Of a stretch of 64,000 nt of DNA, positions 1,619 to 53,400 are shown in pieces. The notes under the pieces were generated by a model. That model did no database searches, was not told the origin of the DNA, and saw only the letters and a program-made list of their open reading frames with translations. This stretch comes from Sipunculus nudus. Its lineage: Eukaryota; Annelida; Sipuncula; Golfingiida; Sipunculidae. Positions within the stretch are counted from its first letter, which is position 1. Every line of letters begins with the position of its first letter. The stretch lies in contig CM049317.1 in NCBI GenBank assembly GCA_026874595.1, forward strand, positions 54,417,118 through 54,481,117, read 5' to 3'. The position numbers and the translations under genes are program-made.

Positions 1619-2287
1619 AATGTGAATCGGAGGGTTAATCCTATTATAATTCACCATTGTGGGTGTGCTCTCGGCAGAGCATCCTCCAGCTCTTGCTTCT
1701 AAATTAGCCACCAAACTCTAAGCAGATTGATTTATGCCTTGGGAATGTCCTTGGACTACTCACACCCCTATACACTTAACAAACCCTGGTTTTTTCCCCT
1801 CCCTCACCATATCCAGGGTCTTCCACTTTCCAGTAAACCTGGAATCTCCAAACACAAAATCATTAATCATGGATACAAGGTCTCCCCTGGAATGGAATTC
1901 TGCCGATGTACATAATACTTAATTAAACAAGCATTTGAAAAAATTGATAATGGTAACATCCAGCAAAATAAAAATTATAAAAGGTCCCCTAGTGTTTATA
2001 AATGGGGATGTTGCATGATGAGAATAGTCAATGTGTTGCCCTATGAATGTAACCTATTAGCGTTATGTAACCTTTTAGTGTAAGTACTTTTTTTCCAGAG
2101 TTAAGCCTCAATACATCTTTTTAGCTCTATGTAAACTGGAAGCAGAAATATATGACAATACATTAATACCCATTTTGATTTAAGTAGACAGAATATTGAA
2201 TTTACCCATACCCCAAAAACATTGAATTATACAAGGATTAAATTATTCTGAATAGTATATAAAGAAACTGCAATAAAATTACTCAAG
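1619..2287. other. Unassigned intronic or intergenic sequence
   Basis: AT-rich sequence between two repeat blocks. Short open frames at 1727-1922 have no recognisable domain. I see no gene, RNA or clear element boundary here. Confidence 0.5.
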
Positions 2288-6740: not shown

Positions 6741-6827
6741 ATTGTATGTAAAAAGTGTATCATACTTATATTGCATAGTTGTAGCAATTCGTTTTAATTT
6801 TCTGAAATTTTATTATTTTAATTCCAG

Positions 6828-7028
6828 TGATCCTCAGATAATAGGCCTGCTCGGTAAAGTGGGGATACCCGAGGATGACACGGTTTCACTGCGTGACAGG
6901 GGGCTATGGATCGCTGTGTTGCCATTATTTTTATACATGATCTCCTTTGCCGTTGTCTCAGTTCACGCTATAATTGCGGGGACAGGGCTCTCCATCCTGG
7001 GAAGATTATTTGGTTTCATGTTTAGCCG
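6828..7028 (+). CDS. PGAP1: PGAP1-like exon A (first visible)
   Basis: Acceptor TAATTCCAG ends at 6827 and donor GTAAGT starts at 7029. The exon enters at the third codon base and leaves after two bases of an Arg codon. It encodes DPQIIGLLGKVGIPEDDTVS (a soluble loop), then a long membrane segment (GLWIAVLPLFLYMISFAVVS) and a Gly-rich hydrophobic stretch. It is not the first exon, because it begins mid-codon with an acceptor. Confidence 0.75.
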
Positions 7029-12073: not shown

Positions 12074-12107
<34 letters not shown>

Positions 12108-15100
12108 TTGTGATTGCTCACAACATAACTCATGTAATCATGAATGGAATCCCTTGAAATGTTCTTCTCAGGAAATGTCTAATGAAGAACTGATTAGATT
12201 TTGGTGTTGGTCCGGCTCATGATCCAGATCCAGGAAGGACTCCAGGAACATTCACAAATGCACAGTCACATGTGCCTGATAGAACATGGGAATATGGGCC
12301 AAACAAGTGAATGCAAACACTCATTGGGGAACATATGCACCAATGAACCTGGGAATATATGGTCAATAAGTGAATGAAATTGAAAACATTGGTTGCAAAA
12401 GACTGGTACACTACATTAAGGACCGCCCACAAGGTGGAGGCTCACAAATGCATATTTCAAGTTTTCATTAATTTACATAAAATGTTATTTTATTTATATA
12501 TTTTTATTCATTTTATAGGTACACTCCATTCATGAAACAGGACCCTTCCCAGGCAGCTGGCTTGATCATGTGTCTTGTAGTAATCTGTCTGAAAAGTACG
12601 GATTTTCCCAATAAACACAGGTCAGTATTACAAGTATACCACTATTGTTGTTTGATAGGGCTCTATTTTTTGCTCAGCTGAATACAAGTCATCTGACCTA
12701 TAGTCATAGTCCTTTGTCCGTGCGTTCGTCTGTTAACAGGGCACATTTTGAAACCTTTAGACCTATGAATCCAAAATTCAGCATACAGTTAGCTGTCCCC
12801 AAAATCTCCTACCATACCAAAACTTGGGTCACTATGACTTTGATCCTTCAAGATATTAAGGAAAAACATCAATTTTCCATTAAAAACCCATTGTTTCACT
12901 TGAAGACTGCATAATATCAAAAGCACTGATCTGATATTGATTATATTTAAAATAACCATTTCTCTATATATTTCCTATGTACTTACCAGAAATTAGGTCA
13001 GTATTGTGTAATTTCTTAAAGTTATGGGCCCGAACATAATGCACTTTGTAAAAAATCAGGAAATATATGAACTCACTTAACATGAACATTATTGAAGCTG
13101 GAGATTTTTTTCAGGGATGTAACTTAATATTATCAAGATTCAATTGTATACCCAAAATAAGATCTGTATTTTGCCAATTTTTTAAGTTATTTGCATAAAT
13201 ATAAAATCAATACCTTAAATTTTTTCTAATTTTTTTCCCAGTATACAGTGTTGATTGAATTTTCACAGTATGTATACATATGGATTTAATAATTGTATCC
13301 GCCAAAACAGAGTTTTGCGGATACTAAGTTTTCAGCTGGACGCCGCCGCCGCCGCCACCGCGTAGGTGTCCGGAGAACTCCTCCGTAACCGCTGGGCGGA
13401 ATTTTCCGAAACCCGGGATTATGTTCGGGTCACATGTGAACTGCTGCGCCCCGATTTTGTTTTGACCTCTGACCTTTCCTTTGCGCTCTGCGTCCGTTTG
13501 TGCATCTGTTTCCACACATAAACCCACATATCTCGGGAACCGTTTGACCGATCAGGAAAATTTTTTTGCACAAATGTAGCCCTCCGAGAGCTTTATAACA
13601 TACACCAAAAATGGTGGCGCCACCTGCAACCATGTTTGCACAGTGTCCATCTGTTCGTCTGCCTTGGGTTAAAATCACTCATATCTCTGCAGTGACTTGA
13701 CTAATTCACCTGAAATTGGGCATGCGTATACATCCTGGATAGCTTTTCTGATTTTATGACAGGTGGCGCCACCTACATTCACGTTTATGCTGCAGACATC
13801 CAAGCTCATATCTTGGGAACCGTTTGACCGATCAGGAAAATTCTTTTGCACAAATGTAGCCCTTGGAGAGCTTTATAACATACACCAAAAATGGTGGCGC
13901 TACCTGCAACCATGTTTGCACAGTGTCCATCTGTTTGTCTGCCTTGGGTTAAAATCACTCATCTCTGCAGTGACTTGACTAATTCACCTGAAATTTGGCA
14001 TGCGTATACATCCTGGATAGCTTTTCTGATTTTATGACAGGTGGCGCCACCTACAATCAAGTTTACGCTGCAGACATCCAAGCTCATATCTCGGGAACCG
14101 TTTGACCGATCAGGAAAATTTTTTTGCACAAATGTAGCCCTTGGAGAGCTTTATAACATACACCAAAAATGGTGGCACCACCTGCAACCATGTTTGCACA
14201 GTGTCCATCTGTTCGTCTGCCTTGGGTTAAAATCACTCATATCTCTGCAGTGGTTTGACTAATTCACCTGAAATTCGGCATGCTTATACATCCTGGATAG
14301 CTTTTCTGATTTTATGACAGGTGGCGCCACCTACAATCAAGTTTACCCTGCAGACATCCAAGCTCATATCTAGGGAACCGTTTGACCGATTGGGCCAAAA
14401 TTTTGCATGTATATAAATCTCACATAGCTCTCTATCATATGCAAAACTGGTGGCGCCACCTGCAGCCATGTTTGCACAGCTCCCATCTGTTTGTCTGCCA
14501 TGGGATAAAATCACTCATATCTCGGCAGTGGTTTGACATATCTGCCTAAAATTTTGCAAGTTTATACATCCCCGACAGCTCTCTTGATTTTATGACAGGT
14601 GGCGCCACCTGCATTCTAGTTTATGCAGCAGATATCCAAGCTCATATCTTGGGAACCGTTTGACCGATTGGGCCAAAGTTTTGCATGTGTATAGAGCTTT
14701 CTGGATTTTTTCGTAGGTAGCGCAACCTACATACACAATTTGGCTGCAGACATCCATGCTAATATGCAACACTTCACCCGTTCCACTCTGATTTAGGCGG
14801 ATACAAGTAGTCGCTTGTCGACTACCCGTATTCTAGTTAAAAATCTGAAATTTCAAAGGAATTGATTGAAAGAATAGCTTTAATTCAAGTTTTTAGACAC
14901 CATGTCAAGTATTGTTTACATCAAGCCAACCAGCCAATACAGTTAGTTATGCAGCCCTTGCCTGTTAATGTAACCCATTCCAGGCAGCTGCCTTGGCTCA
15001 GCTTGGCTTGGCTTTGCTCAGCCCTGCACCCCCCCCCCCCCCCATCCCCCGTCTACCCCAAAATGATGCATAAACTAGATGAATGTTATAATTTTCTATA

Positions 15101-26171: not shown

Positions 26172-29100
26172 TTTGTGTGTGTGTGTAATATTCATTAAAA
26201 ATAGGGTAAGGTAAGTCAGAAAGCAGAAGAGTGTGGACAGGGTCCGCCTAAACACCCAAAGCACCGGTGTTTTGGGTACGTGTGACGAAACACCACGAAA
26301 CACCCTTTTAAATTCGAATTTGAAGCAAAACACTTGTATCATTTAATAAATCATCATCTGTTGGATATGTTAATACAGAATTTGTGCCACTTTTCTGTAA
26401 AATTAAAGAAAGCAATAGTGTTTTGTACAATTGACAAGTGCGCTGCTTAATTGCGACTTGCGCCACTAGGGGGCAGGGTCATAGCTGGCATATACGGCTG
26501 TCGTGGGCGCCGGTGAACCGACCACGACACGAAACACTCGTTTTTATCTTGATGACATGAATTTATGAAACAATATTGCAGAGATATATTCATCAGATGA
26601 TTATCTATCGATTGGTGTTACATTTTTGGTTCAGGTTCGAAGTGAAGTGGGTGTTTCATGGTGTTTCGTCACAGATACCCAAAACACCGGTGTTTTGGGT
26701 GTTTAGGGGGACAGTGTGGACAAGGTAAAGCCAAGAGAACAAATGGATTCTTAGGGCTTCAAGATGTATGTGTATATAAAAAATATATATATATATATAC
26801 AGCATTACAGGGTTATAGATGCGCTGGTTGGGGTTAGCCGGGACAGGCTTCTGCAGGCCAGCACAAAGCTTACATTTTCAACCCACCGACTAGCCTAACA
26901 CGTACGGACTCCATCAATTCATCTGTGATGGAGTCCGACTGTCTGGCTGGGAGATTTCACCCAGTGGTACTTGTAAGGACCTGTGACATGAAATATCAGT
27001 GCTTGTTGTGCAATGGAGAAGCAATCTTTAATTCTTTTATAGAAATAAACATAATATATATCAAATTATATCAATATATATCACCTTTATGTGTGCTCGG
27101 TAGATGTGTTTTATCCTTTGAACTCACAGAGTTCAGTTGATGCCATCCTTCTATGCGGAAGTTGTATATATACCCGTCGGAGATGATGAAATATCTGATT
27201 TCATTCAGAATAAGTCCCCATACTTTCTTACATACTGATCATTCAGCAAAAGTTTTTGTCCCAACAGAGTCTAAGCATATGTATTAATGATGATATGTGG
27301 GGGTGGTTTGGTTTCCTTGAGCTACACAAGGCATATACATGTCTGAGGGTTTGCATGGATCCATGCAAACTTGCACAAACTCTCCCTGCCAGCAGGGTTG
27401 GGGCCAGGTACTTGCAAAAGTACCTAGGTACTGGTACAGGTACTTGCAAAATGGTCAGGTACAGGTACAGCATTTTTGTGGAGTACCTAGGTACAGGTAC
27501 AGGTACTTAATAAAGTACCTAGGTACAGGTACAGATACAGTTTAAAGACGTTTGAACTAATGATAGTTGCATAAATCTCTTGTAGATATGCGATTATAAA
27601 TTGTAATAGAATGGCTGAATATATCATTAAAAAATTATTAATTTTAGCTTTTTTTGTCATCATAAAAAAAATGAGCATCGCAAATGTAAAGGATTGCCTT
27701 TAGTAAATGTGATAAGTGAATGAAGCTGATAAAGTTTACAAAGTTAGTAATACAGAAATATAAAACTTTCGTTCCTATACTAAAATATGATGTCAAAATT
27801 TACAATCAAGCTTTGAGTTTCAGAGTAATGTTTTAAAGTCAAAATCTCTGGAAGCACCACACACTCTTTAAAATAAAGAGGCTTGACAGCTTGAATGAAA
27901 GGAAAATCTTATAATCAGTTTTTAGCTCAGCTGACTTTCAGTCATGCTGGGTTTTAGCGATGGGTCTTTGTCCGGCGTCCTTCCGTCTGTCCGTCCGGCC
28001 GTTAGCTGGGCACAAATCGTAACCATAGGGGCTAGGGCCATGAACCCTATGCAGTCTTAGAGGTTCTAAAAAGATCTCCTTGCAAACCTGAAATTAGGTC
28101 ACTGCGACCTATATTCTCGAAGTTATGGGGTGTGTTTGCACCCCCCAGAAATAATTCTTTGAGCCAAAATTTTCATCCCAAACCTTCCATCTTTCACATA
28201 TAGCTCACCTACTAAGTGGGAGAAGAATCCTATAGATGTTGAGGTCACAAGGTCAAAGGTCAGGGTCACAGGATCCACTTCTTTGAAAAGGTTGTGGACA
28301 CATTTCAAGCTAGACCTTTCATTCCAAACCTTTCAGCACTGATATTGCTTCTCTGCCAACAGGGGAAAAGACCTGTTGATTTTGAGGTCAAAGGTCAAGT
28401 TCACGGCACCCTCTTCTTGCGTGGAGTCATTTTCAGCAAACTTTTCAATCTATACTTTCCATCTGTCATATATGGCTTACCTACCAATAGGAGAAGAAAC
28501 CTATTGATGTTGAGTTCAAAAGGTCAAAGGTCAAGGTCACAATATTGTTCTAAATGCTTGTGAACATATTTCAAGTGAAACTGTTCAACCCAAACCTTCA
28601 GTCTTTCACATATGCCACATCTATGCATCACTCAATGTGATTCAAACTTCATATTTATGGGTCTTTTTGCATGAAGAAATAACTAATTGATTTTGAGGTC
28701 AGCTGGTCAGGAGGTTAAAGGTTGCAGGTCTAAGTTATTCACTCATTGGTTGCCAAGTAATTACACCCGGCCAGATGTTATTGGTTAGTAGTTACCCATC
28801 ATTTAGAAAGAATCCAGTTCATATGTGGGCAAAAGGCCAAGGTCAAAGGTCAGGTCAACTTATTTTGTAGACCATCTCTATTTTTCTTGTATATATAAGC
28901 TTGCACTCCAGCTGGTACATCTCACCGTGTGGCTGTAATTGTGAGTGACACTGGTGACATATGACTCCCTTTTGTATCAGCTCATGGAGTGATAAGGATA
29001 TATTATTAGTGCATAACAAAAACACTGTTGCCGGAATGCTTTGGCCAGGCATTAAGACTATGAGAGTTAAGTGTTAAGTTTAGCTACTGATTTATAAAAT

Positions 29101-32100
29101 GATGGGAACATTTTGCAGTTTATATCATGGAATCATAGCAATAAACTTAGTTTTCTAGATATCTGAATATTATTATACAAATCATCAGATATACCAGCAA
29201 GTGTTTGTTCTGATAATATGTGGGTCTGTACCTGGATTTAGGATGGCTTTATTTGATTAAAAGACTCTTAGTGATGCTTTCTGCATTTCTTTTCTTTTAG
29301 GTTTTGCAGTTTACCTACCCTGCTGACCCCATTGAATAGCAAGCTGATAATTAAAACAAATTGGACTTGCACTTTTTACATTTGCATGTTCATAAATCTG
29401 ATATGAGAGCCCTCCAACCTGATCATGCCTTTTGAATTGTTTTAGACATTCATAACTGTTACATTCTTTGAAGCAATTGCTACAAGTTTAGTGTCTTATT
29501 GGAGCATGTGTGACTTGTCAGAAAACCATTATGTCTGCCAGGTAGCCATTTTAGAAATCCTTTTGCCAGGACAGTTTCTGTGATTTTTTTATGATGTTTG
29601 GTCCCTTTTAGAGGATGTTTGTTGTTCAATTTCCGACCTGTCAGAAAACCAATATGGCCACCAGGACGCCATCTTTAAATTCCTTTAGAACATATTATCT
29701 CAAGAACTATTAAAGTGAATGCAGTGGGATGTATATTAATGTAATCTTGCATTGGGTCAAAGATTTCTTAATAAATATGACCATCATTTATGAAAGCTCA
29801 GTACAGTTGGCTTGTATTGAATAAAAATTAATATGGAAGCACCCGTTTCACAATAATTCTTGCATGGATTTCCTTGATCTTTTGCTATATTTTGATCTTA
29901 TATGTGGCCTGTGTGGTATTCCTTTTGAGACTGACAGGTATCGAGCAAGCTGTGGGATTAGTTCCTGATAGCTCAACAACCATACATTTTGCCCCAGACC
30001 ATCATTCACTATGTTTTAACCAGACATATATGATAAGAATTTATGGCAATGTAGAAAGTTTAAACAAAATTGGCATATAGGTTCTGCAACAATTTTACTA
30101 GAAGTTGTGAATTGCAGCCCATGATGTCGCAGGTCATGCTTGGCAGCTGAGCGTCATGACCCATGGGTCACTTGTTATAGATTAACTTCATGACAGGAAC
30201 AATAATACATACATAATTGAAAGTAACAATAAACATGTTCATTGCAGTATAAGTCATACTGAGGAATGTTTTGAAAATTAAGAGCATCTGCATTTGATGC
30301 TTGAGCTGGGACTTTTTTATCTGTGAATGGGAATGTTCTGCTTTTTTTTGGCATATGTTGAGAGTTCAGTTACATAATATGTACCTTCTTCACTTCTTCG
30401 TTTATCCTTACTAATGTTCTTTGTATACTAGACAACAGGTATGTACATGGGGCGTGTGAGCAACACTGTCCATATCCTTTTCTCTCTACCCTTTATATCT
30501 GATAATGCTTCAATGAACTTCCTGTGTAGATGCTGGAGGTAGCCAGGCCAGCATGCTACCAGCCATAGCCCAGTCTACTTTAAAGGCTGCTTGGAGAAAA
30601 GCTTAGTAATTACCCCTGCCTGGATAAGGTAACAGACCTGATAAGGGTGACAACTCAGTACACTTACTTGACCCAACCTGATGTCCATTTCCAGTTTCAT
30701 TACCTGTAATCCTCATAACTGTAAATTGTGCACCAAGGTACAAGTACCATTACCTGGCCCCAACCCTGTTCTGTGTCTACATTGCATGGACATGATGGCA
30801 GCCCTGTTCTCATCCTTTGTGAGGATACTGATACTTGTGCTAATAATTTCACAATGAACTTCCTGTTTAGAGGCTGGAGGTTGACCAGCTTGCTAGCCCC
30901 ACTAGCTACAAAGGCAGCAGGGACAAATGCTTTGTAATTACCCCTGCTTGAGATAGGTAACTGTCCTGACAGGGGTGACAGCTTTTGTTCAAGCAATTGA
31001 CCCAAGCCTGGTGTCCATTTTCAGTATCACATTTGTACCTGAAGTACCTTATACCAGGTACAGGTACTTTAGTTCCAGGTACAGGTACAAGGTACTTCCT
31101 ACTCATGAAAGTCAGGTACAGGTACTCTAAATTGTGTACCTAGGTACAGGTACAAGTACCTGACCCCAACCCTGCCTGCCAGAGACTGTAGCATTTGACA
31201 TTTGTTCACTATATGTCAGCGCTGCAGACTGTAGCAAACCACCAGCCGACACTGAAGATCGTCAAAGCCCAGCTACCAGCAATTAAACTTTGGTTATTTA
31301 TTATCCCAAACTGCATTAACTGTGTACCTTATAAGCATGTTCACAAAAATTAATCTATTGAGAGCAAAATAATCATAAAAAAAATATAAAATTTATAACA
31401 CTTAGAACAACACAAAGATAAAGCTTACATATTCCGAAACCTTATGCCAGTGTCTGTAAATTTAGCTGGCACTCAAATTTGTCTAGCTGTAACCCTATAT
31501 ATATTGTTATGGAACCTAATATAAACAGATCACGTATGCCTGATGAACACAAATTTTGTAATGGAGAAAAAAAATCAGATTCTGTAACATTAGGCAGCGG
31601 GAAATGTCTAGGGAATGAATAAAGAAGTCAGTTGTTTTTTGTTAACAAGTAACTATATAATTTATTCTTAAAACAACCCTAACAATACAATACACTAAAT
31701 CAATACAATTATACAGTAACACAGCTTTATTGCAACAAGTCAATACAATCACACAGTTCTATGGTACAGTACCTTGATACCAAGATAAGTCCTTTGAATG
31801 TAAACTCTCACAGAATGGCAGTCCAGTGGAAAGTTCTTGCAACAACACAGAAAGTAAACTGAAGTCCTAATGTATGAAATCCAGGAAAGTTCTTGAAAAT
31901 CTATAATTGCCGTATTTGTCTGATAAGGTTTTAGAATCTGACACACGCTTCTGCCTCCGCTGGAATCTGCTGTGCTGTCTGCCCCCTGGTTCTAAACAAC
32001 AGCCCCTTTATATACCTTCACACCCAAAACCAGGAATTTTCCACTTCTCGAACAGTCTAAAAGGACCTTACTCCTCAGTAAACACGCGCTACAGGAATTC

Positions 32101-32409
32101 TCTGGAAAGACATCGCTGTGTATCTACACATACCAGGCTCATCACATGACCCACAACCAGGCGTGAAATCTAAAGGCCCACATGACAACGAGAGTTCAGC
32201 CAGTACAGACCAAACACAAAATGGAACAACAACACAAGTTATGCCCGTGTCATACAATAAAAGAGCACCTGTAACAATATATATACATATAAATATCCTA
32301 AAAGAATTTTTGTACCCAACTTTCACCCTTTCTATCCTAGTTTTCTTGTATTTACACCAAAGACTGGCACAATATATATACTGGATATAGCAGTACATTT
32401 TAAGCAATA

Positions 32410-32447
<38 letters not shown>

Positions 32448-35400
32448 ATATATAAATATATATATATTGTTGAGGGGTACGAATAAAAGCGGATCAAACT
32501 GTCTAACTTGTGCAGCTTGCTTTTCTAGCGAGGCACTTGGAATGGCGAACATGACATCACTGACATGGGTTCGACTCTAGGATCTGTCCAATATTTTCCC
32601 ATGAGCAAAATGTTTCCGTAATGTATGGGGGATCATCCAAAATAAAACCCAACTTTTAATAACTTCGTGTTTTGTCAATTGCCCCAGTTTTATCAAACTC
32701 CATATCATTAGGCCCTGCCATATGACCAATTGTCAAAACAGACAGTTCAGTGAGAGATTCAGTATTAATGTAAGCCACCGGGCCACCGGCATGCAACAAA
32801 TCCTTTGCATAAATGTGTGCCTACTCTTACTAAAAAATAGTAGATCATATTATGCTCCCACATTGTACTTGCTTCATTGACCTATTTTGACATCAAGGCT
32901 GTTTTATTATTTGGCCACACATGTTCCTACACAGATACAGAGGCCCCAGCATGTGTGATATCAAAGGTCTGCAAGGTTCATATCAACACCTGTGGGCGAT
33001 ATGGCTGGTACATTTATTTGGGCTCATGTCAGCCAGGCATTTAGTCTACTCTGTGGCACAACCATGTAGAATGAAATTTTTTTAAATATATTTTTTGGTG
33101 GAGGTAACTGCCTCCATTTTTAATGCAAACTTAACTAGGTATATGTACATCTGCAGAATTCAATTTTTGTTTCGGACAACGTGACAGGGCAGTATCACAC
33201 ACTTCCTCTCATTTTAAATCCTGTTGTTAACAAGGTCGGATGACCACTGCACCGTGGGCCCTGGGTGCATAATCGTCCACATTGCTAGGTCATACCACCG
33301 AGGAACCACCGAAAGATGCACTCGTTTGTGAGTGAAATACGGCTTTGGGGCACAACCTTCCCATTAAGCCTGCAGAGCGCTCACCCTTGGTGGGGGCCGA
33401 CCGTGAAAATCTCACCACCTTGACTGAGATTTGAACTCACAATCTCCCGGCTTTGAGTCCTGTGCTCTACCCCTGAGCCAAAGAAGCTTGTTGTACAATA
33501 AAATTGACAAACTCCATGATTCGTGTTATGTCACTTTGCTCAATCAAATGAAATTGACAAACATCACATGGCTTGTGAATTCACTATGTTGTTTTTCAAT
33601 GCCTGAAGGTGCCGGGGCATGAACTGTTTTAGTTTTACTTGAGTACTTTGTGAAAATAGAGTGACTGTACACAGTTTTTTTGTCATGATAATATGTGTGG
33701 CTGTCTAATTAAAATATTATGAACAGCTTGTTGGGTATTGCCTTAGTATTTAGCTTTGGCAGATGTATCAGCTGATATGCCACCCTCAGGCCAATAAATA
33801 GGCAATGTACATATAGAATGATCCAGTTAATAACATTTAAATTATCATAGCCCTATTTCCATTTACATCCACAACAGGAACACTCCAGTGTTGAGTGCCA
33901 TAGAGCTTTTTTGACATCTTTTGCTTGTTATCAGCCAGGGTTGGCAAGTTTCCGTCATTGGCAACTAAAAATGGGGTTGGTTTTTAGATTTATACTCGAC
34001 TTGTTATATCTCTGCTACTCTGCAAATCTTGGAGCTCTATGATTTCATCAGCGCTGCAAAACTAAATAGCGCAGGATATCACTATCCATGTAGCTTTGGG
34101 TTTCCAAGATACCATACTATATTGTTTTTGTGTATTTTTCATTATGTGTAATATGGTAAACATCTGGGAGTTCACCTTTCCATCAGATTGGTATAAAATA
34201 TAACTTGTCTTTCCATGTATGTATTTCTCTGTCTGAGACGGGCGGAATTGCGTAATTACGATCCCTGTTTTATTGTGTACCCACATGTCTCTAGTTATCA
34301 AACAGCATGTAGGGCTCTCTCACAGCGGACATCAACGAAGCATTGGGAAGGAATGGGAGCTTGTTGGCTCTCTTTTCTATTACAGTTCCGATAACTTACT
34401 TCACAACTGTGAACACAGTGCAGAGTAACTTTTCTTAAGCATTGAATTTGGTAAATTATTCACTCAAAAAACTTGTCTATATGTTGGTATTTCCCAGATA
34501 GTTTCCCTAGTATTCGCAAATTTTAAACACATGGACTTGATGAAGTGACTTAAGTTGTTTTCTGAGGTGGCTGCAGGTGCATTTGTAAATCTAAACATTC
34601 TAACTGACTTGTCATGGTGAGGTTGAAAAGACAGTTCACATAAAGAAATACAGGGTATTTGTCCATGGTGTCTCATTTCAGTTTTACACACAACAACTGT
34701 TGTACTTTCTTGTGCTTGTATTATATCTATGTGCCATGAATCTGTTTGTAACTTTCAGGTAACAAAAACTCTTGCTTCCTGAAACTTGTGAAAGGTTAGT
34801 TTTTGCTGATGACATGAGTAAGAAGTTAGAGGAGATGCCCAATATCTTATAATTTGTCAACATCAATGTTGAACTATATTTTTTCGTGTGTGAAATTTAT
34901 ATTGTTTAACCACAATATTTTACATATTGTTTCAGGTTATAAAGACAACAGGATTAATGAAGGGCCTATTCACAGATTCAGAAATGAACTCTGACAATGT
35001 AAAAGACAAAGAGAGCAAAATCAACTTCTTGCAAAAGGCAATAGACTTAACAGGTAAGTCTTATTCCTGTTTTGTCACAAAATTATGAGTATGCTTCCAC
35101 TTAATTTCTGTACTTAGCATTTACTGTATAATCTAGTTAATGGTCTAGTTCAGTGTTTTCTATTCACAGAGGCTTTTTCAGCAGGCACATACTTATATAC
35201 ACCAGACATTATATTTATTTTGTATGCTAGAGGATGATTTTATGTATACAAAAATGAAGGCTTTATGTGGAATAATATATTTATTTTATAAGGAACAAAG
35301 CATCAAACTTTTTATAAAAAGTCTTAATGCATTGTCTACAAAGTGACATGAACAACATCATATATAATGTTTTGTCCAAAAATTAAATATTCAGCAATTA

Positions 35401-38400
35401 AGAGTAGACATATTGACATACCCACTGGCCACTGAACTACACAGTTACATTTAATTCCATACATACAGTCCTTATTTTTCAGTGTGTATATATATATATA
35501 GGTCTAGATCTTCTTTTTAATATAGAGTAATTATAATATTTACAATATGGGTTTCTGTGTGTATGCAAAATGGCAGCTGGTTTTGAGAAACTATGGACCT
35601 ATCATCAGTATCGGGTTTGATAATTGCAAGGGGATGCCGCCTGAAAGTATTCCCGAGGAGAGAATCCATCTGCAGGAAAATGTATTGGCAAAGTTTAGAG
35701 TGAAATAACCCTTTTTTAGGACAACATCCAAATCCTCAAATTATAGTAAGATTTCCAAACCATAGATAAAATGTATTGTTCACCATGCCATTGCCTGTCT
35801 ATGTAGGAATCAGATGCCAATCAGCTTGTTTCTAAGTATTGTCCTTTAGCCTTACGTGCCTTTAAATTGCGAACCTGAGAGACACTTGTTAAATGTAATT
35901 TTTTGACTGGAAGAATGCTGACATTGATGACTGTGACCTTTCATACTGCGACCTATCTTGTTAACTTCTCTTAGGAATGGCTGTTGGTAGACAGTTATCA
36001 GTTCGTCCTGCCAAGATCGTTGCGGGTCATGAACCTGAGAAAACTAACGAGTTTCTACAAGCACTAGCAGAAGCCATCAACAAAAAGGTAGGTACAGAAT
36101 AAAGCACGCCTCACAACTGCCGGTGCTTGTATTGTATCAAGTTACATATCTTATAATTTGTCAACATTAATGTTGAACTATATTATCTTAGCCTCTGTTT
36201 TTCTTCATTGCACCTGTGAAATCAGATAAAAATAGTCTAAAACTTTGTCTCTTGCACCAGATTATAGAGTTGCATTCATCCTTTATCTGAAAGCTTGTCA
36301 GTGCCATCACTAATCATATCAGATTGGTCAGAGAGATCAGGAATCATATCAGTTTTTGTCAGAGCTGTCAGTAATCATATTTAAAATTTGCTGTCATTCT
36401 GCTTTTGAGTAAAATTGAAATCTTGTCTGATGACCAAGTCACTATCATGACCATCCCACTAAAACAACCACTTTTTTTGTCCCAGAATAATGTAAGTCAT
36501 TATAAAACCCTTCCACTAACACAACAGTTAGTTGGTCCCGCAAGTTGTCGTGTTAGTGAGATTTAATACAGGAATACTTTGATACTAGCCTGAAGCCAAT
36601 GTGTACAAATTCATTCTTGTTTTAACTTTTCTTAATTCAGGCTGGACATGTTGAGTTATTTTGTCATCTGTACATGACACTAAATATTTTGCACTTAAAT
36701 TGTTTATCTGAAAATCTGTATGAATTAATATATGACAGGTTGACAATGATGAGATGGTCAGTAAAGTCCTTGGCACAGGTGGCAAATCTTCCAGTTCTAA
36801 AAGAGATGCAAGCAGTGACCGACGCAAGAAGAGAGACAAAGAGGTTGGCCCCTTCTGTTTGATTTTATTACAGACCATTAGGACACTTAAGTCAATAGAT
36901 TGATGAAAATTAATGTAGCTTATATTATTTTCTAGGATATCTAAGATTTTTAGATGACTTTGAAAAGCTATCAAATTTAGTTATGATGAAATGAAATCAG
37001 ATTGAAAAGTGAATAGCCAGGAAAAATTTCATGTGATTTGAGTTCTGTGAATTTTAAGTCCCAAAAAATGTTCATATTTAAGGCTGGAATGTTAACATAT
37101 CACATTCTTTTATCTAATTGGCTATTTCTCATGGTAGAGCTCATGTTTTAAACTAAATAGCAATGTAAAAAAAGAGAGAATTTCTGCAGTGAATCCCACT
37201 GATACATTTTAATTTATAAGGAACGAAAGTACAAAGATTGTATAAATCTTTAGAGCATAGAGTACATTTATATTAGTGATCACTTAAGATAAATTTACTG
37301 CAAAATTTTAAGCAGGATAAAGAGGAGAGAGGGGAACGCAGTGAGAAGAAACATAGAAGCAAAGACAGAGACAGAGAAGACAGGAAAGACAGAGAAGATA
37401 AGAGAGACAGAGAAAAAAGCAGAGACCGAGAACGCAGTCGAGACAAAGATCGAGACAAGGAGAGAAGCAAGGACAGAGAGGATAAAGAGAACGAGAGAGA
37501 AGACAGAAAAGATAGAGATGAGAGGAGAGAAGAGAAAGAAAAGGAAAGAAGGAGGGTGAGTTTAAAAATAAGAGGTTGATGGTGCTGGATGCATACTTGA
37601 TCCCCTTTTTTTTGTCGAGGGTTTTAAATTTGTGATATTCGTGAATGGGCAATTATCATGAAAATAAAACCTTCTGGGATAAGAGGTCCCATTGTTGAAG
37701 GCAAAGTTGAAAAGTAAAAGCTTGACATTATGAATAAAAATAGATTGTGCATTTTGCTCATGCTATGTTCAAAGATTGATATAATTTTAAATAATATCAG
37801 ATATTTCCAGTTGTCTGCCATTAACAATATTTGTTGTTAATAAGATTTTATTGTGCCCAGAATATTTGTCTTACTTGAGACATTTAATTTCCCATAATAA
37901 TGCTTTTACTCTGTGTGTAGGTCTGTTATATTGTGAGATGCCAAAAATGGAACTGAAAAAGAGAAATATGAAGCTAACCACTCCATGCCACATGCCATTG
38001 TGTTGGTGTGTCCTTGTTAAGCAGGCTTGCAACTCAATTTTCTGATATTTTCTTTGCTTCTCCAAAGTATCATTGAAAATTGCTCTGTGTTAGAGCAGGA
38101 TAACTCGTTTATGTTGTGGTAATTATGGTGAAGTATCTCATCGGAAGTAGTAGGCATTGGTATAAAGTCAGCATAGTGTAGTCACAGACACAGGAGACAG
38201 TGGAATCATGTTATATTTGGGTTTATCGTACAACACATACTGCAATTTCCTGTGATTATTTATTTCAGGAAACAAGACTGATTAATTTACACTTACGCAA
38301 TCATATCATATTCTTTGCTTTTTGGTCAAGTAGGTCCTATGAACAGGAGCAAAGAAGATAGAGCAAAAATATCACTTATCTCAGTCAGTCTGAAACTGTA

Positions 38401-41400
38401 TGGGGCCTCCTATATAGTCCCTATTTATACCTTAGGATTATGTAACAACACAGTTACAAGCTCTTGTACATTCAGTAATTTGCATTTAACTTGTATAATG
38501 TTTTGTTCTATCTAGAGACGAGAAAAAGAACGAGAACGAGAAGCTGAAAAACAACAGGAAGAAGCATCAGGGAAGCAGGAAGCTGTGATGAACGGGGAGG
38601 CTGAACCAGATAAAGAGGTACTGTAATTAAATGTCCTCCACATGAACCAGATAAAGAGGTACTGTAATTAAATGTCCTCCACATGAACCAGATAAAGAGG
38701 TACTGTAACTAAATGTCCTCCACATGAACCAGATAAAGAGGTACGGTAACTAAATGTACTCCATGTGAACCAGATAAAGAGTAAATGTAATTAAATGTCT
38801 TCAGTGTGACATAATGCACCAGATAAAGAGGTACATTAATTAAATGTCTTCCACATGAACCAGATAAATAGGTACTGTAACTAAATGTCCTCCACGTGAA
38901 CTAGATAAAGAGGTACTGTAATTAAATGTCCTCAACGTGAACCTGCCATAAAGAGTTACTGTAATTAAATGTCCTACAAGTGAACCAGATAAAGAGGTAC
39001 TGTTATTTAATGTTTTCCATGTAAACCAAATAAAGAGGTACTGTACCTGAATCTCCTCCATGTGAGATAAAGAGGTACGGTAACTAAATGTCTTACAGTG
39101 TGATATAATGCACCAGATAAAGAGGTACTGTAATTAAATGTGAACCAGATACAGAGGTTCTGTTGTTAAATGTCTTCAGTGTGATACAATGCACCAGATA
39201 AAGGGGTACTGTAATTAAATGTCCTCCATGTGATTATTGATATAATGAACCAGATAAAGGGGTACTGTTATTAAAGGTCCTTGACATTAATTAATGAAAT
39301 AGAGAAAGAGGCACTATATCCATCTTAACAATACAAACAATTTAGCATACTCAACAATGCTCTGTCTTTTAAGGTACCATAATACAGTTACAGCGGTTTA
39401 TATTTAATGCTGGGTGGTCTTTAAATATGCATTGGTTACTGTGGAACACACTTCCGTCAGATACAGGTTTAGCCATGCCCCATTCCTAATACTACACACC
39501 ATAAGCTTTTCAGATAGCTTGATCCCTGCCAGTTGCAAATTGGTTGCAACGGGAAGAACATTTTACCCCTGTGGCCACTGTACTGTTATAATGGATAATT
39601 ATCTATGTCTTTTTTTATCTGATAGCCTGCTCCAACAGCACAATATCAGAAAGTCATGCCCACTAGATGTAAACCCAGCAATTGCAAGTCTTACCTGGCC
39701 ACATAATGCAAAATTACCTGTCTTTTTGTTCCATATACATATAAAAAGTATACAAGCTATCTCTTATATTCCTAGGATTATGAATAGCCAATCAGAGCTA
39801 TCTAAACCATTAACTACAATGAGATGTGCTCACAGCTAATGAAACCTTCCCATATACTAGCAGGACCTTGTGATATATATTGAATATGTAATTTATCTTG
39901 TAGGCTGAAGCACCACATAAAATCCCAAGACCATCATCGGCAAAAGGATCCAGGCGGAGACACAAAGAAGGTATTCTTATTTTGAACCTACGATTCTTTG
40001 TTTGGTTTGGGTTTGATTGCAGTGATGGCAGTGTTTGGTTTGGCTATGCATCGTTTTAGATTTTATTGTCTCCTGATTCTGCCAAAATAGCCGTGATATC
40101 TCATGCTGTCTTCAGTATCTCAGGATATCTTAGATATCAGATTTTACTGAACTATCTTCAAAGATCCTGCATTGCTGCTGCTTAGCGTTCAGACATCAGA
40201 GAATCCTGATATTCAGCCATGCTTTTATCATTTCTCATATTTGTACATAAATATATACTTTGAAATGTTGTGTATTTTGTCTTGTTGCAGCTAGTATTAG
40301 AGAGAACTTCAATTTGGTTATATAATATGAAAGTTAATTTTGGAACTTTAATGTACCAGGTGAAGGATAATGTGTGAAGTTATAGAATTAGATATTCGGT
40401 CTGCCAGGCTGTAGTAGAAATCTGCCAAAAAAACTACTGCCGATATTAAAATTTCCCTTATTTAGAAAGCTGCTGCAAAAATAAATATTATCAGGCATGA
40501 TTGAAACCGTCAAATCATTAGAGACTGTCACTTTTGGGACTGTTCCCAACATATATTATTTGTTTACATCCTCATGAGCCTGCATTATGCACTGAAACCC
40601 CCAGCCAAGGTCACCACCACAAAAATGCACTTTCTAGCGAATTATGAATGGGTACTATTCATGATTATTTTGTAAGGGTCCTAAAAGGTAAAACCTCAGA
40701 TAGGTGGCTTAACTGAATAGCTCTACATTGTTAAGAGAAAATGGTTGCCACTTGCTTGAAAATCTTTTTTTATGGTTTATTGTATTTGATAATTTAATGT
40801 TTTTTATCTTTGATTAAAACGCACAGAAAACATGATAATTTGTGAGTAATTGTTTTAGCTATATTCCATTTAGTATGTAGAAATTAGGCAGCGGCACTAT
40901 TAGTTCAAATAGAACACAAGTTGGCATGAAATTTTGGTAGATCAATTACTGAGTATGCAATTTGATGCACTAAAATAGTAAACCTGTATCATTTGTCTGT
41001 GGTAAACCTCCAGTGCAACATGATGTCCAGAAATTCATCATGTCCCCAGTTTAATTATGTATATGATATCATAACTACCAGGAAATCACCATAACCATGA
41101 CATCACATCCTGTTTAAAGCTAGCATTGTCTTGTATTTGGTTTGGACATCTCATTCTCAGAATTCATTTTGACATTGGCAGGGCTGCTTGCGCTGCCATC
41201 TAGTAATGAATATATAAACTATTAAAGCATTATTTAAAGCAAACTTTAAATAAAATAAAAATATTTGGCTCCTGTTACAATACTTCTTCACTTATATGTC
41301 AGACCGAGAGATAAAAAAAAAATTGTATATAATGATGAGAAAACTCAGTCATCACCAAATCAAGAATCACCGCATCAGTCATTCAGGGGCTTTTTCACAG

Positions 41401-44400
41401 TACACATGTCAACACTATTACTTCTTGGATTTGAAAGAAATCTCTATTTTTTCCCTCCATGATTTTTTACCATTTTCATAATTTTAATCTTGAAATATTT
41501 TGTATTTTTTATGATAATATTTTCGAGGGTGAGCCCTTCAGTGCATTTCAGATCGATGTTCTTTTGGTGAATTTACTCGTATTCCTTATTTAGCCAAATG
41601 AAAGATGACACAGATTTGTTAAATAAGATTCCTTTTAGCTCACACCAGATATATCTGTGATAAGGAAGTTGATGTTGGCACTAACACGCATGTTCACTTT
41701 TCCTCACCCTCCCGCAGGCAAACCAGATTCCAGTGATGAAGGTAGGTGGCACCACATGTCTCATTAAATATTCTTCACATACTCCCTGCATGCCACTTAC
41801 CGCACCATCTTCAACTCTCCATACATTTCATGTAGTCTCTGTAAATAACTTGCACATGAAATATGTCACAGTATTACAAAGAAGGTGCAGAAATGATCAA
41901 TTTTTCTTACATGTCAGTGACTAAAACAATAGTTATATTTTGTTCTAACATGGGTACCTCGTGGTTTTCACTATTTTAAGCTAAGCTGACTGTCAATCTC
42001 TTCATATACCCAACTGGCTGACTGTGCATATCTTTACAAGGTAAAAATCAAAATTGTTATAGGTACAGACCTGAAATTTGGCATGCAGTTCTGGCAAAAC
42101 CAATGTACAGACCTGAACTAGGTCACTATGACCTTGTTTCTTCGGGCAATGGAATGACTACCTAATAAATCTTCAAGTTTTCTGTGTATCCATCATGTTT
42201 TTGTCCTTCCAGTTTAGTATATAGAAAAATATGTTTATGATCCATGCACATATGGACATTAAGACAGTGTCATAAACTTTATCAGGCAACTGTAATTTAA
42301 CTTTTATCAGGGAACTGTAATACATTGGTTGCTCAATAATACAATGAGTTTTAAGAGGATGATGAGGGTATCAATCTCAAAACCAGGGGTAAATCCGAGT
42401 TAGAACAAATTATAACTGATCATCTGTATATATAATGTATGTAGATTGCTTGCTTTTTCTTCAAGGTCTTTGATGCATCTCTTTGTCAGGTGTTTTCTAT
42501 TGGGTCTGCTATGTTATCTTATATCAAGCCTCAAATTTGTTTATGTTAAAAGTAAAATGAATGCGCCATAAACAATTAAATACCAATGATTACCACCTGC
42601 ACCACCAACTAAATTCTGAACAATCTTTGAATTTGAAATCAGTTTGATAAATATAAGAAAATTTGACCATTTCAAAGAAATTCAATTATTACAATGAAAA
42701 GCACTTTCAATTTTCTCCTCTGCTTGATCTGGAGTTGAATCATTTAAATTTAGGCAATTCATTAATATAAGTCCCAAAGAAGGACTCTGTCACAAGCCAA
42801 ATTTTGTCAAAAGATCATTTGACCAGAATTTTTTTAATTGAATTTTTTTTTAACTTGACAACAAATTTGAGGCTTATTTTGTGATTAGAACCATAGAAGC
42901 TTACGAAGTATCAGAAATTCGAGTAAGATTTAGTTTTGTTTCAGGACATGCATCATTCATGAGGGGTTTGTGGTGTAATATGTGTTAGATATTTAGTTGA
43001 TAAAACCAATGACGTTCATCATCCATAAAAAAGACTAATAATACAGAGCCTTCAAATATGTGTTCATGTCAGTTACACAAGTTATCAGACAGCAAAACTG
43101 GCATTTAACCAACTTCTGTGGTCAGAGAGTAGAGTACAGGCCTTAAAGCTTTGAGCCGGATGTTTATGCCTGGTTAATTGCCATTCAAGTCTTGTTTAAG
43201 GAAAATTCAATAAGTTAAGTAACACCCAGACTTCAGGATCGTCATAACCTGGTACCTATAGCTATTGCATTTTAGTATCACTGCTTCTTGGAATACTGGG
43301 GGTACATACACAAAAAGAAACACAGACTGATCTTTTGACTTTGTGCAACAATTGCCTTGATCTGTCTCCTGAACGACATCACACCCACCATGCCACATCT
43401 CCCAGATGGAGGCCCCTCAAAGTATTAGTAAGCTGGTTATCCTAGTGGCTAGTAAGGCCAGTGTTTACCTTGTTTTCCATGGCAGGGCACTGTTGAAATG
43501 TTTACAAATTACCAAAAAATTGAGAGGTGATACCAGGGCTGTGTGAAAATAAGTTATTATATCTGTCACCTGGAGGCCAGGCCCGATCAGCCATGGTTAA
43601 AACAGGTCTTTTTTACACCCAATACTTTAAATTATCTTTTTTTACTAATTCCTCAAAATTATTTATCTGTAATGTTTGTTATAATATGGTTACCGAGAAT
43701 GAGTTATACAGCTTAGGAGAGCAGTATGTGAGCTGGTCAGCATATATTTATCTGGTAATTTTATGACAAAAACTAGTTGAATAAACTAATTAAAATAATT
43801 CATTATTATGAAGCAAAAGTGTTAAGTTTGTACCAAGTTTGTTCTAATGATATAAAGATGCTGAGGAGCTCTTTTAACTGTTGCATATTTACATTAATAT
43901 ATACCAATATTGTTAACCAGTGTCCTGTACTGTTTATTTAACAAATTACACTTTTAAAATTGTTATAGTTCTGAAAATAGGTGAAGAATTTATGCTTCAA
44001 TTAATGGTGGTATTTTTCACTCTCCAATATTATGATTAACATATTTAATGTTCAGATATTAAATACTAGGCGGTGGATATAATCAGTTAATTAAAGATTT
44101 ACCAAAAACATACATTTGTTGTGTAGAACCTCATGATATTGACTTCAGTTGTTATTTAAAGCTAATTATAAAATTTTAAGCTGCAACTAAAAAAATGAGG
44201 CATTATTTTTAAATAACATAATGAAATAAATATTGTATTTTACCAAATGAAAAATTTATTTATTGATTTAAGTTTTGCAGACATATGAGGCTAGAGAGGA
44301 GATATGATACAGTGCCGATGAAAAAAGTCTGACAGCAACATTTGTAATTAACCCCTTCCTTTAAATGAGACCTCTGTAGATTCATATCTGATCATTGTTG

Positions 44401-47400
44401 TGTGGTTTATGTTACAGATGAAGAAGATGAAAGGATGAGAGCAACCTCTGGCAAAAGGACGGAGAGCAAAGTCAACGGAACAGTTACAGAGAACGATATA
44501 CCACCGCAAGTTGCTGCAGCGTGAGTGTTCTGAAGAAAAAAGTAACAAAATAAAAATTTATTACTGTTCTTACAAGTCATCATTTGAAACTTGGCTAATT
44601 TTGTTCATATTTTTATACACCTGTCAGTTATGGACTTATTCACGTACCTGTTGTGTTAAACATACACAAAATAAAGCATTTTCTCCTTTTTATATTATAG
44701 TATCTTCCAGTATTACATTCCAAAACTGTTTGCTTACTCCTGTACAAAAGTGGCAAAAAGCTAGCAAGGGGCCAGGATACAAACATAGCATACCTGATAG
44801 TGATAGCACGCAACTTCACAAATCAAATTTTGCAAGCTTCCAACTGTTCCTTCTGTATTTCTTCTTCCATGTTTCCTCAACTTGTTTGGGAGTTATAACA
44901 TGTGCAAGATCACACCCCTGCACACTAGAACATACTCATGGAGCTCTGTATTTAAAGGAAAATTTGGCTTTTACCACCAAATATTATAGCATTCATGAAT
45001 TGGGTACCGTAAAGTTCTTAATATAATACCCTGCCTCATTAGAATACAAACCCCATTTATTTGCCCAGAATGTTTATGCACCGATGCACTCATACCGCTT
45101 CCACTAAAGGCTCAAATAGAATATGCTCCCAAATTAACCTCATTGCCACCACAACCTTGTACCATAGGATTCATCCAAAAATCTTTGGAAACTGTACTAA
45201 AAACACAGGTGTAATGCAAATTGGGGATGTACCTGTGTATTTTCATTTATTGCATTTATATGATCTAGCATTATGAGTGAAACTTGTTTTTATTTTTACA
45301 GAGATCATCATGAAAACATTATATGTGAGAGTATAAAATATTTAATTTAGTTTTATTGTTATGTTGACAAATATTTAACACCTTTTTCTCATAAATAATG
45401 CAAGCCATTATTCTATGATAATTGTGTAGGCTCGACAGATACAACTTCACATCCCTCGAATCAGTCCTTCCTTCCACAAAATTTCTTCAATGAAATTCTT
45501 CAAGAACTTTCATTTTAGTGGGATTGAGACACACATAGACAGTGATGACAGACTGTAGACATTGCCTATCTTTTATGTACTCTATAAAGGGCTTCACTGA
45601 ATATAATACTTATATGTTATAGATGGAAAACAGCAAGGCCCCCTAGTGCCAGACCAGCAGCACCGAGACCAAAGCAAAAAGACACAGCTCCAGAGGAACC
45701 TGTTGTTGTGTAAGTATCAGTAAAAAAAAAGTATCAGTAAAACTAGAATCAACTAAGAACTGTAAACTCAGGGAAAGGGCACAGAACTCAAAGCTTGACC
45801 GAGATGGTGAGATTTTTCACTTTCAACCCCAAACCAAGGAGAGCGCTCTGCTGGCTTAATGGGGAGGTTGTGCCCAATGGCTGTGCTTCAATTACAAATG
45901 AGTCCACCTTTCGGTGGTTCATTGGCAATGGGGATGAATTACACACCCAGGGCCTGCAGGTACAGTAGTCACCAGTCCTGGTTAGCAGCATGCTATAAAA
46001 TTAGAAGAAGCTTGTGATACTGCCTTGTCACTTAGTCTTAAACCGGAATGGAATTAAGGGGATGTACATACACTTAGTTAAGCTAGCATTAAAAATGGAG
46101 GCAGCCATAGGGTGCTCATTGAAATTTGGCAATTATTTTCTGAAACTCAAAAATTATCACACAGGCTGACCTTAAAACTGATGAGGGACCAAAGCCCAAT
46201 TATGAGATGTAAACTTGGTAACAAAAAACAATATGTATATTTTGCAACCATCTGGTTCTTCTATCCTTGTGGCCAAGTTACATGGCATCTGTCATTGGTT
46301 GCAGACAACTGCATTATTTAGAATATTGATGACCAATTATTAATTTTCAAATGCAGTTGTTTAAGAATGTGACCAGTGACCTTGACTTTCATGAATGGAT
46401 ATGAGGTGTAAAAAATACTGTTTAATCAGATATTGATTTAAATGCATTAATATTTTGCATGATATGATTTAAATTTAATTATAGTTAATTAGGCCATTAC
46501 CCCATTCCTTCATTGCAGCATACTGTCTTGATTTAATCTGCCAGATTATGAAAATATTGTCAAATTTATTGGGTACCTTACTGTGGAACAGACTGTACCA
46601 AAAAGAAATTTAATAAATCATTAAAGCAGAATTCCACACACACACACAAACATTTGTTTAACCCTTTACTGTTCAGAGGACCACAGAGATTTACTTATCA
46701 TTTGACTAGATTAAAACATATTTATTTTCAGTCCTAAAACTTTCCATGAATGAAAAGCAAAGGCTCCCTTCTTAACTATTTTCAGTTTTGTAAAATTGGA
46801 ACAAAATTTGAGCAAAATAATATTTGTATGGACTGTACTTGTAAAGAAAGTCAGAATTTGTCTGGAATTGGAAATAAATTTGAACAATAAAGGATTAAAC
46901 TTGCTCCCTATTCAGATTAGACCCCATTTGTATATAACATTTAAACCTATCTATTTCATCTAATGGTACAATTATCACTTAAATATCTCTTTTAGTTTTC
47001 AGTATCTTGGTAATTCCTAGCTACAGAACACTTAGATTCAGACATAAATTCCATGAATTTGCTTGTTACCATTGATTTCATGTTGACATCTTGGTCTTAT
47101 TTTTTAAGTTGTACTGTACTTGTTTAATCATCTGATGAAGTTTGAGAATCAAAGAGATAACAATCTTTTAGTTTTACATTTACTTGTGACTACAGGAGCG
47201 GGTCTGGGAATGTGCCAAATCTGATCGTAGACAAAGACCAGGACTCGGATGACGACGATATGTTTGTGGCTAAGGAAGAGGACCAGCCAATAGCACAGGA
47301 GATGCCACAGGTCTGTATAGCTGGTCATCGTGCCAGACAAAGTAGTCTGTCATGCAAGCAAGAACTGATTATTTTATACAGGATACGTAATACTTTAAAA

Positions 47401-50400: not shown

Positions 50401-53400
50401 GTAGTACAGCCTTCACTTGCATTATGTAACCCACCCCAGGCAGCTTGCCTTAGGTCAGCCTGGCCACTACCAGCAGGCTTCCCCTCTGCCCTGCACTCCC
50501 CCCCCCCCCCCAGATGGTGCATAAACTAGATGAATGTTATTATTTTCTGTATTTGATTCATTCATATTCTAGGCTATGCTACATTTTAGATTTTGTATTG
50601 TACCACCAGGGTTACAATGATTAAAGTGTACATTTAATTGTGTCCAGAAAAGTGATGTATTGCTATGAAAGTGTGGATGTTCATCAGATAAATAATTCCT
50701 TACTTCAGAAGAGTAAAAACTTCACCAGGTGTGAAATTGACTATTAATTCCAGTAATAAATTAAAACTGGGATAGTAATAAGCACAATGATATTGTTTGT
50801 CCCTCATTTAACCAACAGTGTGTATACTTTATTTGAAAATATGTTTTTATTATATAAAATTTACTGAATCTTTTATTTTATTTTGGTGAATAAAATTAAG
50901 CATGTACTGAAAACTCCAATGTGCAAAACTTTTTAATAGTGGTTCAAGGAATATTCTTGTAGATGCCATGTTGTGGCATTATTTTCTTTTAAATTCAGTT
51001 TAAACATTTATGATTTAAAAATAATAAAATATATGTGTATGCATAATATGACCCAATATGAGCTACACTCTGGATATATGATGATTGCAACTTTTGCAAC
51101 AATTCTAATATTTTAACTTATAGTTTCAGATTTTTACTCTGTATATATATTGATTGCAACATTTTGCAACAATTCTAATATTTTAACTTATATTTTCAGG
51201 TTTTTTTATTAAAAATTTATAAAACCTGTAAATAAAAAAATGATTCAGATAAAAACTTCTTAATGGAAAAAGTGGATATGCTTAAAAAAAATAGGATTAT
51301 ATATAAACTTAAATGCATTATTCCCTTGAAAGTGAAATTAAGGTATTAGTCCATTCTGTCCACTTGCCTGTCCATCTGTAAATTTTCATATGCATCACAG
51401 TATCTCAAAATTTTACTGTTTTTCTTTATGACAGTCTTGTCAGAGTATTAGTTTGCAATCATATATTTAGAACTTTACTATAACCAAGTAGAAGGGCCCC
51501 TTTCCTCTTAGCTTTTCATATTCTTATGTAAATGAAAAACGTTACAATAGAATATTTCTACATCCACCTTCGTGCTGCCCTCACTTTTCCCTTCTCCGAA
51601 CCCCATCCCAAAGTCAGCCTCAGTAAGCAAGAACAAGATAAATCAGATATATTCATACTTTAATATTTTGTATAACTATTCGTCCATAGGTACCTATGTA
51701 CATGCCAGAAATTATGTCAATATTGTGTAATATGTAGACATAGTGGGCATTACAATAATGTACCTTGTCAAGACTAAAGAGATATTGTGTCATACAGTCA
51801 CAAATTCATAAATCACTTCATCAGCATAGTTAATCATAACATCATATCTGTCAAATTGAAAGCTTGCAGACTACCATACACTTTAGATCCTTCAACAAAT
51901 AGCCTTATCATCATTCTATTACTGCTTATTACTGCTGTCATTGCATTCATATTTGCTCAAATATATCACAGTTTTCAACACCCTCCTAAATAAATAAAAA
52001 ATAAACCACTATATTTGACTCTATTAATCCATCAGTCAGGTAATTTCATTTATCATTTACTCACATTTTACATTATATACCTTTATAATAGCCCAACATG
52101 TCCATGATATTCATAAGCTTTATCGACTCGATATAGTATCACAGTGGAGAAACATTTATAGTCCAATCATGATCAGCTGAGCGCCGTGACCCATGGGTCC
52201 CTTGTTTTAAATGTAGAATATATATGACTTTTATGTAAAGAGATATACATTTTAAAGTAAAAGTCTATTGCAAGTTTCAAACAAAATTTGTAACACTGAT
52301 ATTTCTGCATATACAACTGAGTACAATTTTTTAAAATCATATTTCATATTTTCATTTTACACAGATACAAAATTCCTTGATATTCACATTTTTATGAATT
52401 ATGTGCCAAGATGAAAATCACAGTATTTTTCGTCAGGTTTTGATATGAAAATCTGAATTACTTTGCAATGTTAAAACCAACAATAGAGAGCTCCATTTCT
52501 GTCGTTACATGAGGTTCAGAAAATATGAATTTTATTCTTTATTCTCCTTATCAGAAATAACTAAATTGAATTTTAACATTTCATCTAATACAGGGTTCCC
52601 ACTCATTAATTTAGTACACGTTTATGGACCTTTTAAGGACTTTCATGAACCATGTCCATTTGATTTCATGAACATGCAGCTATTCAGTCTGACTTCATAA
52701 TACAAATAGCTTTATTCAGTATTCTTCAGCATTAAAATTGAAAATTACAACAGCACAAATGCAGAATTTATGGACTTTAATTCATGTCTGGTTATTTTTA
52801 CCAAAAATTTAAGAATATTAATGTACTTCAGTTCTGCAGTTAAGAATTCTTGGCCTTTCATAGTTTCTACAGACATGTATGACCCCTGAACCCTTAATGA
52901 ATACCATGGTTAGCGTAATATTTGCGAGTTTTAAATTTTGCAATAGCTTCATTTTTAACGTCTTGTGGGGTTTCATTTTATGGACTACCAGAATGGTAAA
53001 GGTGCATTATACGGGTATGAACTTCAGGGGGTTAAAACAACAATTGAACCCATGTTTTTATGCAGAAAAATGTGGGTTCAATGCCTAATAGACAGTCAGC
53101 TAGTCAACCCATATATTTATTTTTTTACAAATTTTTACATTTCTACCTGTGAACCCACATTTATTTTGTGCAAAGTGAACCTACTTTTGGTTGTTTTTGT
53201 CAATGACATTCTGTAACAGTCCAGAAAAACAAGTCAAGAAGTGAGACTCATTTTTTTTACTGCATATTTTTAACTTTTAAAATTCTAATATATATTATTA
53301 ATATCAGTATTTAGTTGAAGCATATTAGGCATTGAACCCACATTTTTTGTTAGAAAATGTGGATTCACCTCATGTTCCAGCTGTGTTTGTTTATGATGAA

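Follow-up and report, generated by a model that had tools for sequence, protein, structure and literature searches.

The IFT54 locus and its sixth intron

The window (the whole 64,000-nucleotide stretch of Sipunculus nudus DNA that was analysed) contains, on its forward strand at 25808-54677, a complete gene model for IFT54/TRAF3IP1 with 13 coding exons, 559 codons and a stop. All 12 introns have GT-AG ends and the reading frame is unbroken, giving a predicted product of 559 residues. Pfam searches covered the joined IFT54 exons, two forward frames of 30001-44999 and six frames of 1-15002. The joined exons matched MIP-T3 (a CH-like domain, E = 6.4e-45) and MIP-T3_C (the C-terminal region, E = 3.3e-47, residues 400-556), and the six frames of 1-15002 gave no match at E 0.01. 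Searching the PDB with the product at E 1e-5 returned four related sequences. The best match was TRAF3-interacting protein 1 (E = 2.8e-48, two such chains), and the others were an IFT54 chain of 510 residues (E = 1.2e-43) and one chain of a flagellar associated protein. The repeat described below is hosted by a cilium gene.

Exon 6 (38516-38617, forward strand) runs from phase 0 to phase 0. Intron 6 (38618-39903) has phase 0 on either side in the gene model, which fits a donor at GAG/GTACTG, the slash marking the exon-intron junction. Exon 7 (39904-39970, forward strand), with the acceptor TTGTAG/GCT, likewise starts in phase 0 and is compatible with the donor at 38617. The neighbouring exon 5 (37316-37555) contains a coding low-complexity repeat rich in K, R, E and D, in which Tandem Repeats Finder detects an 18-base period at 37347-37432.

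A 41-bp unit spans the exon 6 donor

The end of exon 6 is repeated in tandem along the start of intron 6. The 41-bp unit comprises the last 16 coding bases of the exon (38602-38617) and 25 intronic bases, so that unit 1 (38602-38642, forward strand) holds the true donor GAG/GTACTG at 38617/38618. A sequence-only reading of this DNA had proposed that the repeat unit takes in the exon 6 end together with the 5' splice site, and the gene model bears this out, with 16 exonic and 25 intronic bases around GAG/GT. The same reading put the exonic share at 14 bases; it is 16, as units 1 and 2 are homologous from 16 bases upstream of the junction onward. Tandem Repeats Finder, which it had recommended as a check, confirmed the array, reporting a 41-bp unit at 38602-39092 with 11.8 copies and a score of 570, and partial arrays continue to 39279.

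We delimited the units by scanning a 28-base core over 38560-39420, with a score of at least 40 as the cut-off. The scan yielded 19 local matches, 16 of which passed the cut-off (one exonic and 15 intronic). The remaining three (20.5, 24.0 and 26.5) fell under the background maximum of 31.5, which was taken from 1.1-kb slices of the remaining window on the plus strand. The 15 clear intronic copies, units 2-16, occupy 38643-39294 on the forward strand and measure 32-56 bases each. A putative degenerate 17th unit at 39295-39318 (forward strand) is doubtful: its core match, at 39301, is the one scoring 26.5, and blastn carries the array homology to 39318. The roughly 16 intronic copies counted earlier are thus 15 clear copies plus this doubtful one. 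With at most three mismatches, a 21-base core occurred 14 times, compared with no occurrence in 100 shuffles.

The intronic units share a mean pairwise identity of 0.825, and the exonic unit agrees with their consensus in all 28 core columns. A GT stands in register in 13 of the 15 clear intronic copies, so look-alike donors do follow the true donor, as had been noticed. The longer motif GATAAAGAG/GTACTG, said to be retained in many copies, is intact in 5 of the 15.

An assembly artefact, in which one unit was falsely expanded, had been raised as a reason to discard the array. Units 1 and 2 are indeed identical across all 41 bases, but in the alignment every other unit differs from the rest in sequence or length (32-56 bases), which is not expected from false expansion of a single copy, and we consider it extremely unlikely that the whole array arose in this way.

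Several other identities for the array were rejected. A dispersed element was set aside because blastn at E 1e-5 matched the exon 6 array, and a second array at exon 12, only to their own loci within the window. A known non-coding RNA was dismissed on finding no Rfam match at gathering scores in 25000-56000. A coding role was dismissed as well: the eight open reading frames of at least 25 amino acids that overlap 38500-39400 reach at most 73 amino acids, six of them lying on the minus strand across the array or exon 6 and two outside the array.

No clear decay gradient away from exon 6 emerged from core mismatches (Spearman 0.35, P = 0.21) or from unit order against identity to unit 1 (Spearman -0.42, P = 0.12), and neighbouring units were not more alike (Spearman 0.09; 82% of 2000 permutations gave no higher value).

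Look-alike donors, some of them predicted to be stronger

Donors were scored with human donor frequencies (PWM) and the human U1 5' end, which makes the scores approximate. On the human frequencies, the true exon 6 donor reaches 3.86 bits, which places it second from the bottom among the 12 donors of the gene (range of the remaining 11, 3.46-12.71), and its U1 duplex of -6.6 kcal/mol is the fourth weakest. Exon 4 (36739-36843) shares the AAAGAG/GT ending with exon 6, and its donor is weak too (GTTGGC, 3.46 bits).

In-register copies in units 4, 6 and 12 exceed the true donor by PWM, and those in units 4 and 12, although not 6, also exceed it by U1 energy. Units 4 (38738-38746) and 12 (39072-39080), both on the forward strand, each carry the candidate decoy donor GAG/GTACGG, with a G at +5 and identical scores (7.39 versus 3.86 bits; -7.7 versus -6.6 kcal/mol), and are predicted to be stronger than the true donor. 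Altogether, 11 of the 87 GTs in exon 6 and intron 6 strictly outscore the true donor by PWM, 10 of them within the array.

Reading through past exon 6 adds V and L before a TAA at 38624. Every donor downstream of the first would therefore include the stop, and the earlier proposal that a TAA near the exon end blocks later donors stands, with two codons intervening. Frame and phase are what point to use of the first donor. Near sequence cannot distinguish it from the second, as the two are identical from -16 to +50; if donor 1 is chosen over donor 2, the cause has to lie in their order, in the part of the exon before -16 or in sequence past +50. Predicted RNA structure was rejected as the reason why donor 1 wins, since its mean unpaired probability (0.42) is not singled out among those of the other donors (0.20-0.48).

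With a weak true donor and two in-register copies that are better on both scores, decoys may be used leakily. The array might then be a regulatory poison element, with leaky use of units 4 and 12 producing early-stop transcripts, less IFT54 and an effect tuned by copy number. The strength of these two units, the low rank of the true donor and the TAA that lies within the product of any downstream donor would all suit such an element. Against it, the two stronger decoys are among the less accessible donors in the predicted structure (0.26 and 0.20, compared with 0.42 for donor 1), the donor columns are conserved no better than the remaining core, and the related repeats of human F7 and amphioxus, discussed below, are reported without disturbance of normal splicing. 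We consider a poison element improbable.

No sign of selection on the ladder

Conservation among the units was compared by column, with two bases removed from unit 9 to hold the register. The donor 9-mer is conserved at 91.1% and the remaining core columns at 92.6%, while in-register GTs survive in 13 of 15 copies, compared with 12.9 expected. Retention is nominally 94.4% in columns of exonic origin and 90.4% in those of intronic origin. Judged from these sequence comparisons, selection apparently does not maintain the ladder of donors.

Because the donor is not preferentially conserved, neither the U1 titration offered by the sequence-only reading nor a selected form of its decoy role finds support. 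Consequential binding of U1 snRNP by the decoys, whether depleting U1 or aiding the weak true donor, would draw on the GTs kept in 13 of the 15 clear intronic copies. Their predicted pairing is modest, however (-4.2 to -7.7 kcal/mol), and the donor part is not specially conserved. Furthermore, U1 is very abundant in cells, and against the cellular pool some dozen weak sites within a single intron are negligible. Such binding is very unlikely to matter.

A second donor-spanning array at exon 12

Exon 12 (53718-53944, forward strand) is the source of a second array, absent from the sequence-only reading, which duplicates its 3' end and its donor GAG/GTGAGA. The last 24-29 coding bases and the donor are repeated three times in intron 12, at 54020-54064, 54078-54128 and 54134-54188 (together 54020-54188 on the forward strand), and a partial match lies at 53988. 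Their identities to the exonic original, in ungapped register, are 84%, 64% and 76%. A GT donor persists in two of them, one equal to the true donor (9.70 bits) and one slightly better (10.02 bits), and the third lacks the GT. The first full codon after the exon 12 junction is a stop (TGA at 53946).

From the exon lengths, this junction falls at codon 508, within MIP-T3_C. As the boundary sits inside this conserved region, the intronic copies descend from the exonic one, meaning that copying went from exon to intron. The exon 12 array (53908-54200) is more diverged than the exon 6 array, and its duplication was probably independent of the one at exon 6 and apparently earlier.

By analogy with exon 12, copying at exon 6 probably also ran from exon to intron, in a protein stretch that aligns poorly with relatives. 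The opposite course would be that the array was born in the intron and only afterwards supplied the present end of exon 6, by capture or overwriting, the true donor itself being an array copy. Such an origin could account for an exonic unit that matches the array consensus and does not differ from unit 2, and the poor alignment of the exon 6 end with relatives would also be in keeping with it. Nevertheless, the exon 12 array runs the other way, with its boundary in a conserved domain, and we regard an intron-born array at exon 6 as unlikely.

No sign of a preference for exon boundaries

The 24 exon boundaries were each compared with their adjoining intron side only, using 200 Markov resamplings per boundary. 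Donor 6 scored 98 and donor 12 scored 62, whereas the best resampling scores were 33 and 38, respectively. Weaker, nominal excesses appeared at donor 4 (34, 0/200), acceptor 8 (35, 0/200) and acceptor 6 (36, 1/200), followed by donors 5 and 11 (3/200 each), donor 2 (6/200), acceptor 2 (9/200) and acceptor 10 (10/200). The low-complexity exon 5 lies within reach of donor 4 and acceptor 6.

An initial test compared 23 boundaries (without donor 11) with 1500 random positions and gave scores of 87 for donor 6 and 55 for donor 12, which were reached by 4.3% and 10.1% of the random positions. Local repeats spanning a given point were found at 117 of 1030 window positions (a count that includes the exon 6 array itself), at 52 of 482 positions in the gene and at 41 of 463 in the gene outside both arrays. 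By chance, about 2.7 (window) or 2.1 (gene outside arrays) of 24 boundaries would be spanned, and two were observed; the comparison is rough, because the random-point control searched both sides of each point and the boundary test one side. At this resolution, boundary-spanning repeats were not enriched among the 24 exon boundaries tested. A genome rich in tandem duplication would suffice to explain both arrays, and the sequence gave no sign that duplication prefers exon boundaries.

Precedents in amphioxus and human

The exon 6 array belongs to an already known type of repeat, whose precedents are the mirages of amphioxus and the repeats of human F7 intron 7. According to the published reports, mirages are tandem repeats across exon-intron boundaries, with AG/GT signals in many units and no apparent interference with regular splicing; they differ in length between haplotypes and show somatic instability at Adh3 (PMC3087553, PMC3902484). 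The genes named in these reports are Adh3, the globins BflGb6 and BflGb9, and TnC, with PGBD5 likened to mirages (PMC3087553, PMC3902484), and the cases cited there come from cephalochordates.

The IFT54 array shares with mirages a minisatellite-like tandem unit across an exon-intron boundary and splice signals in many units. Its copies are tandem and minisatellite-like (a 41-bp unit, 16 clear units) and, with boundaries taken from the gene model, the units at exons 6 and 12 both span the exon-intron junction and its splice signal. On these grounds the array fits the structural definition of a mirage, and we claim no kinship by descent with those of amphioxus. In the same reports, Adh3 repeat lengths are 10-72 bp, a range that includes 41 bp, and BflGb6 has six and three units in two haplotypes, fewer than the IFT54 array. 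Both IFT54 arrays duplicate donors, whereas the published mirages include acceptor boundaries too. Variation in the length of the IFT54 array between individuals is plausible by extension from the amphioxus cases.

Human F7 intron 7 (IVS7) carries 37-bp repeats of which, as reported, only the most upstream donor is normally used, and mutation of that donor at +5 causes exon skipping and use of downstream cryptic donors (PMC6627357). In the IFT54 sequence and gene model, too, the authentic 5' splice site lies in the first repeat with look-alikes behind it. The two differ in gene and in unit length (37 versus 41 bp), and donor choice was studied in F7, whereas in IFT54 it is deduced and two copies are predicted to surpass the true donor.

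Tandem duplication across splice sites has also been put forward as a model for intron gain, including in potato RdRp (PMC4974935). Both cases involve duplication across a splice boundary, but the IFT54 copies lie within one existing intron with no new intron evident, and the gene model requires no intron inside the array. A literature search for a minisatellite in a TRAF3IP1 intron found no report.

A probably neutral minisatellite behind a putative working donor

Taken together, we favor, with a probability of roughly 80%, a neutral minisatellite that arose by tandem duplication of 41 bp across the exon 6 donor and spread into intron 6 while the first donor stayed in use, with the same accident at exon 12. 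Replication slippage or unequal exchange would have duplicated 41 bp reaching from the last bases of exon 6 across the donor, and the array would then have expanded into intron 6. The first donor would most likely still be spliced, being the earliest to appear in the nascent RNA and the one that closes exon 6; later donors would be skipped or would yield early-stop transcripts. At exon 12 the same accident would have happened independently, making both arrays the probable outcome of abundant local tandem duplication in this genome, not of a dedicated splice-site mechanism.

A bolder extension starts from the two arrays placing equal or better copies behind each true donor. IFT54 splicing would then depend on donor order, and array length would tune the use of the stronger units 4 and 12, leading to early-stop transcripts that vary between individuals. 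We regard this extension as speculative and improbable.

How the spliceosome chooses among near-identical 5' splice sites has long been asked, and IFT54 exon 6 is a natural experiment on this point: RNA from this gene would bear on donor choice without engineering. The second array adds that boundary duplications can recur in one gene, which makes counting them genome-wide feasible.

Other repeats in the window

Three arrays near the start of the window, at 4999-5302, 11073-11719 and 13527-14765 (periods of 127, 123 and 278 bp), match each other at 70-78% in the first-listed pieces, and their sequences suggest a single dispersed family of tandem-prone repeats. The segment 48950-50316 has blastn relatives at 49-590, 12666-13290, 27915-28001 and 51674-51731, and is possibly a dispersed mobile element.
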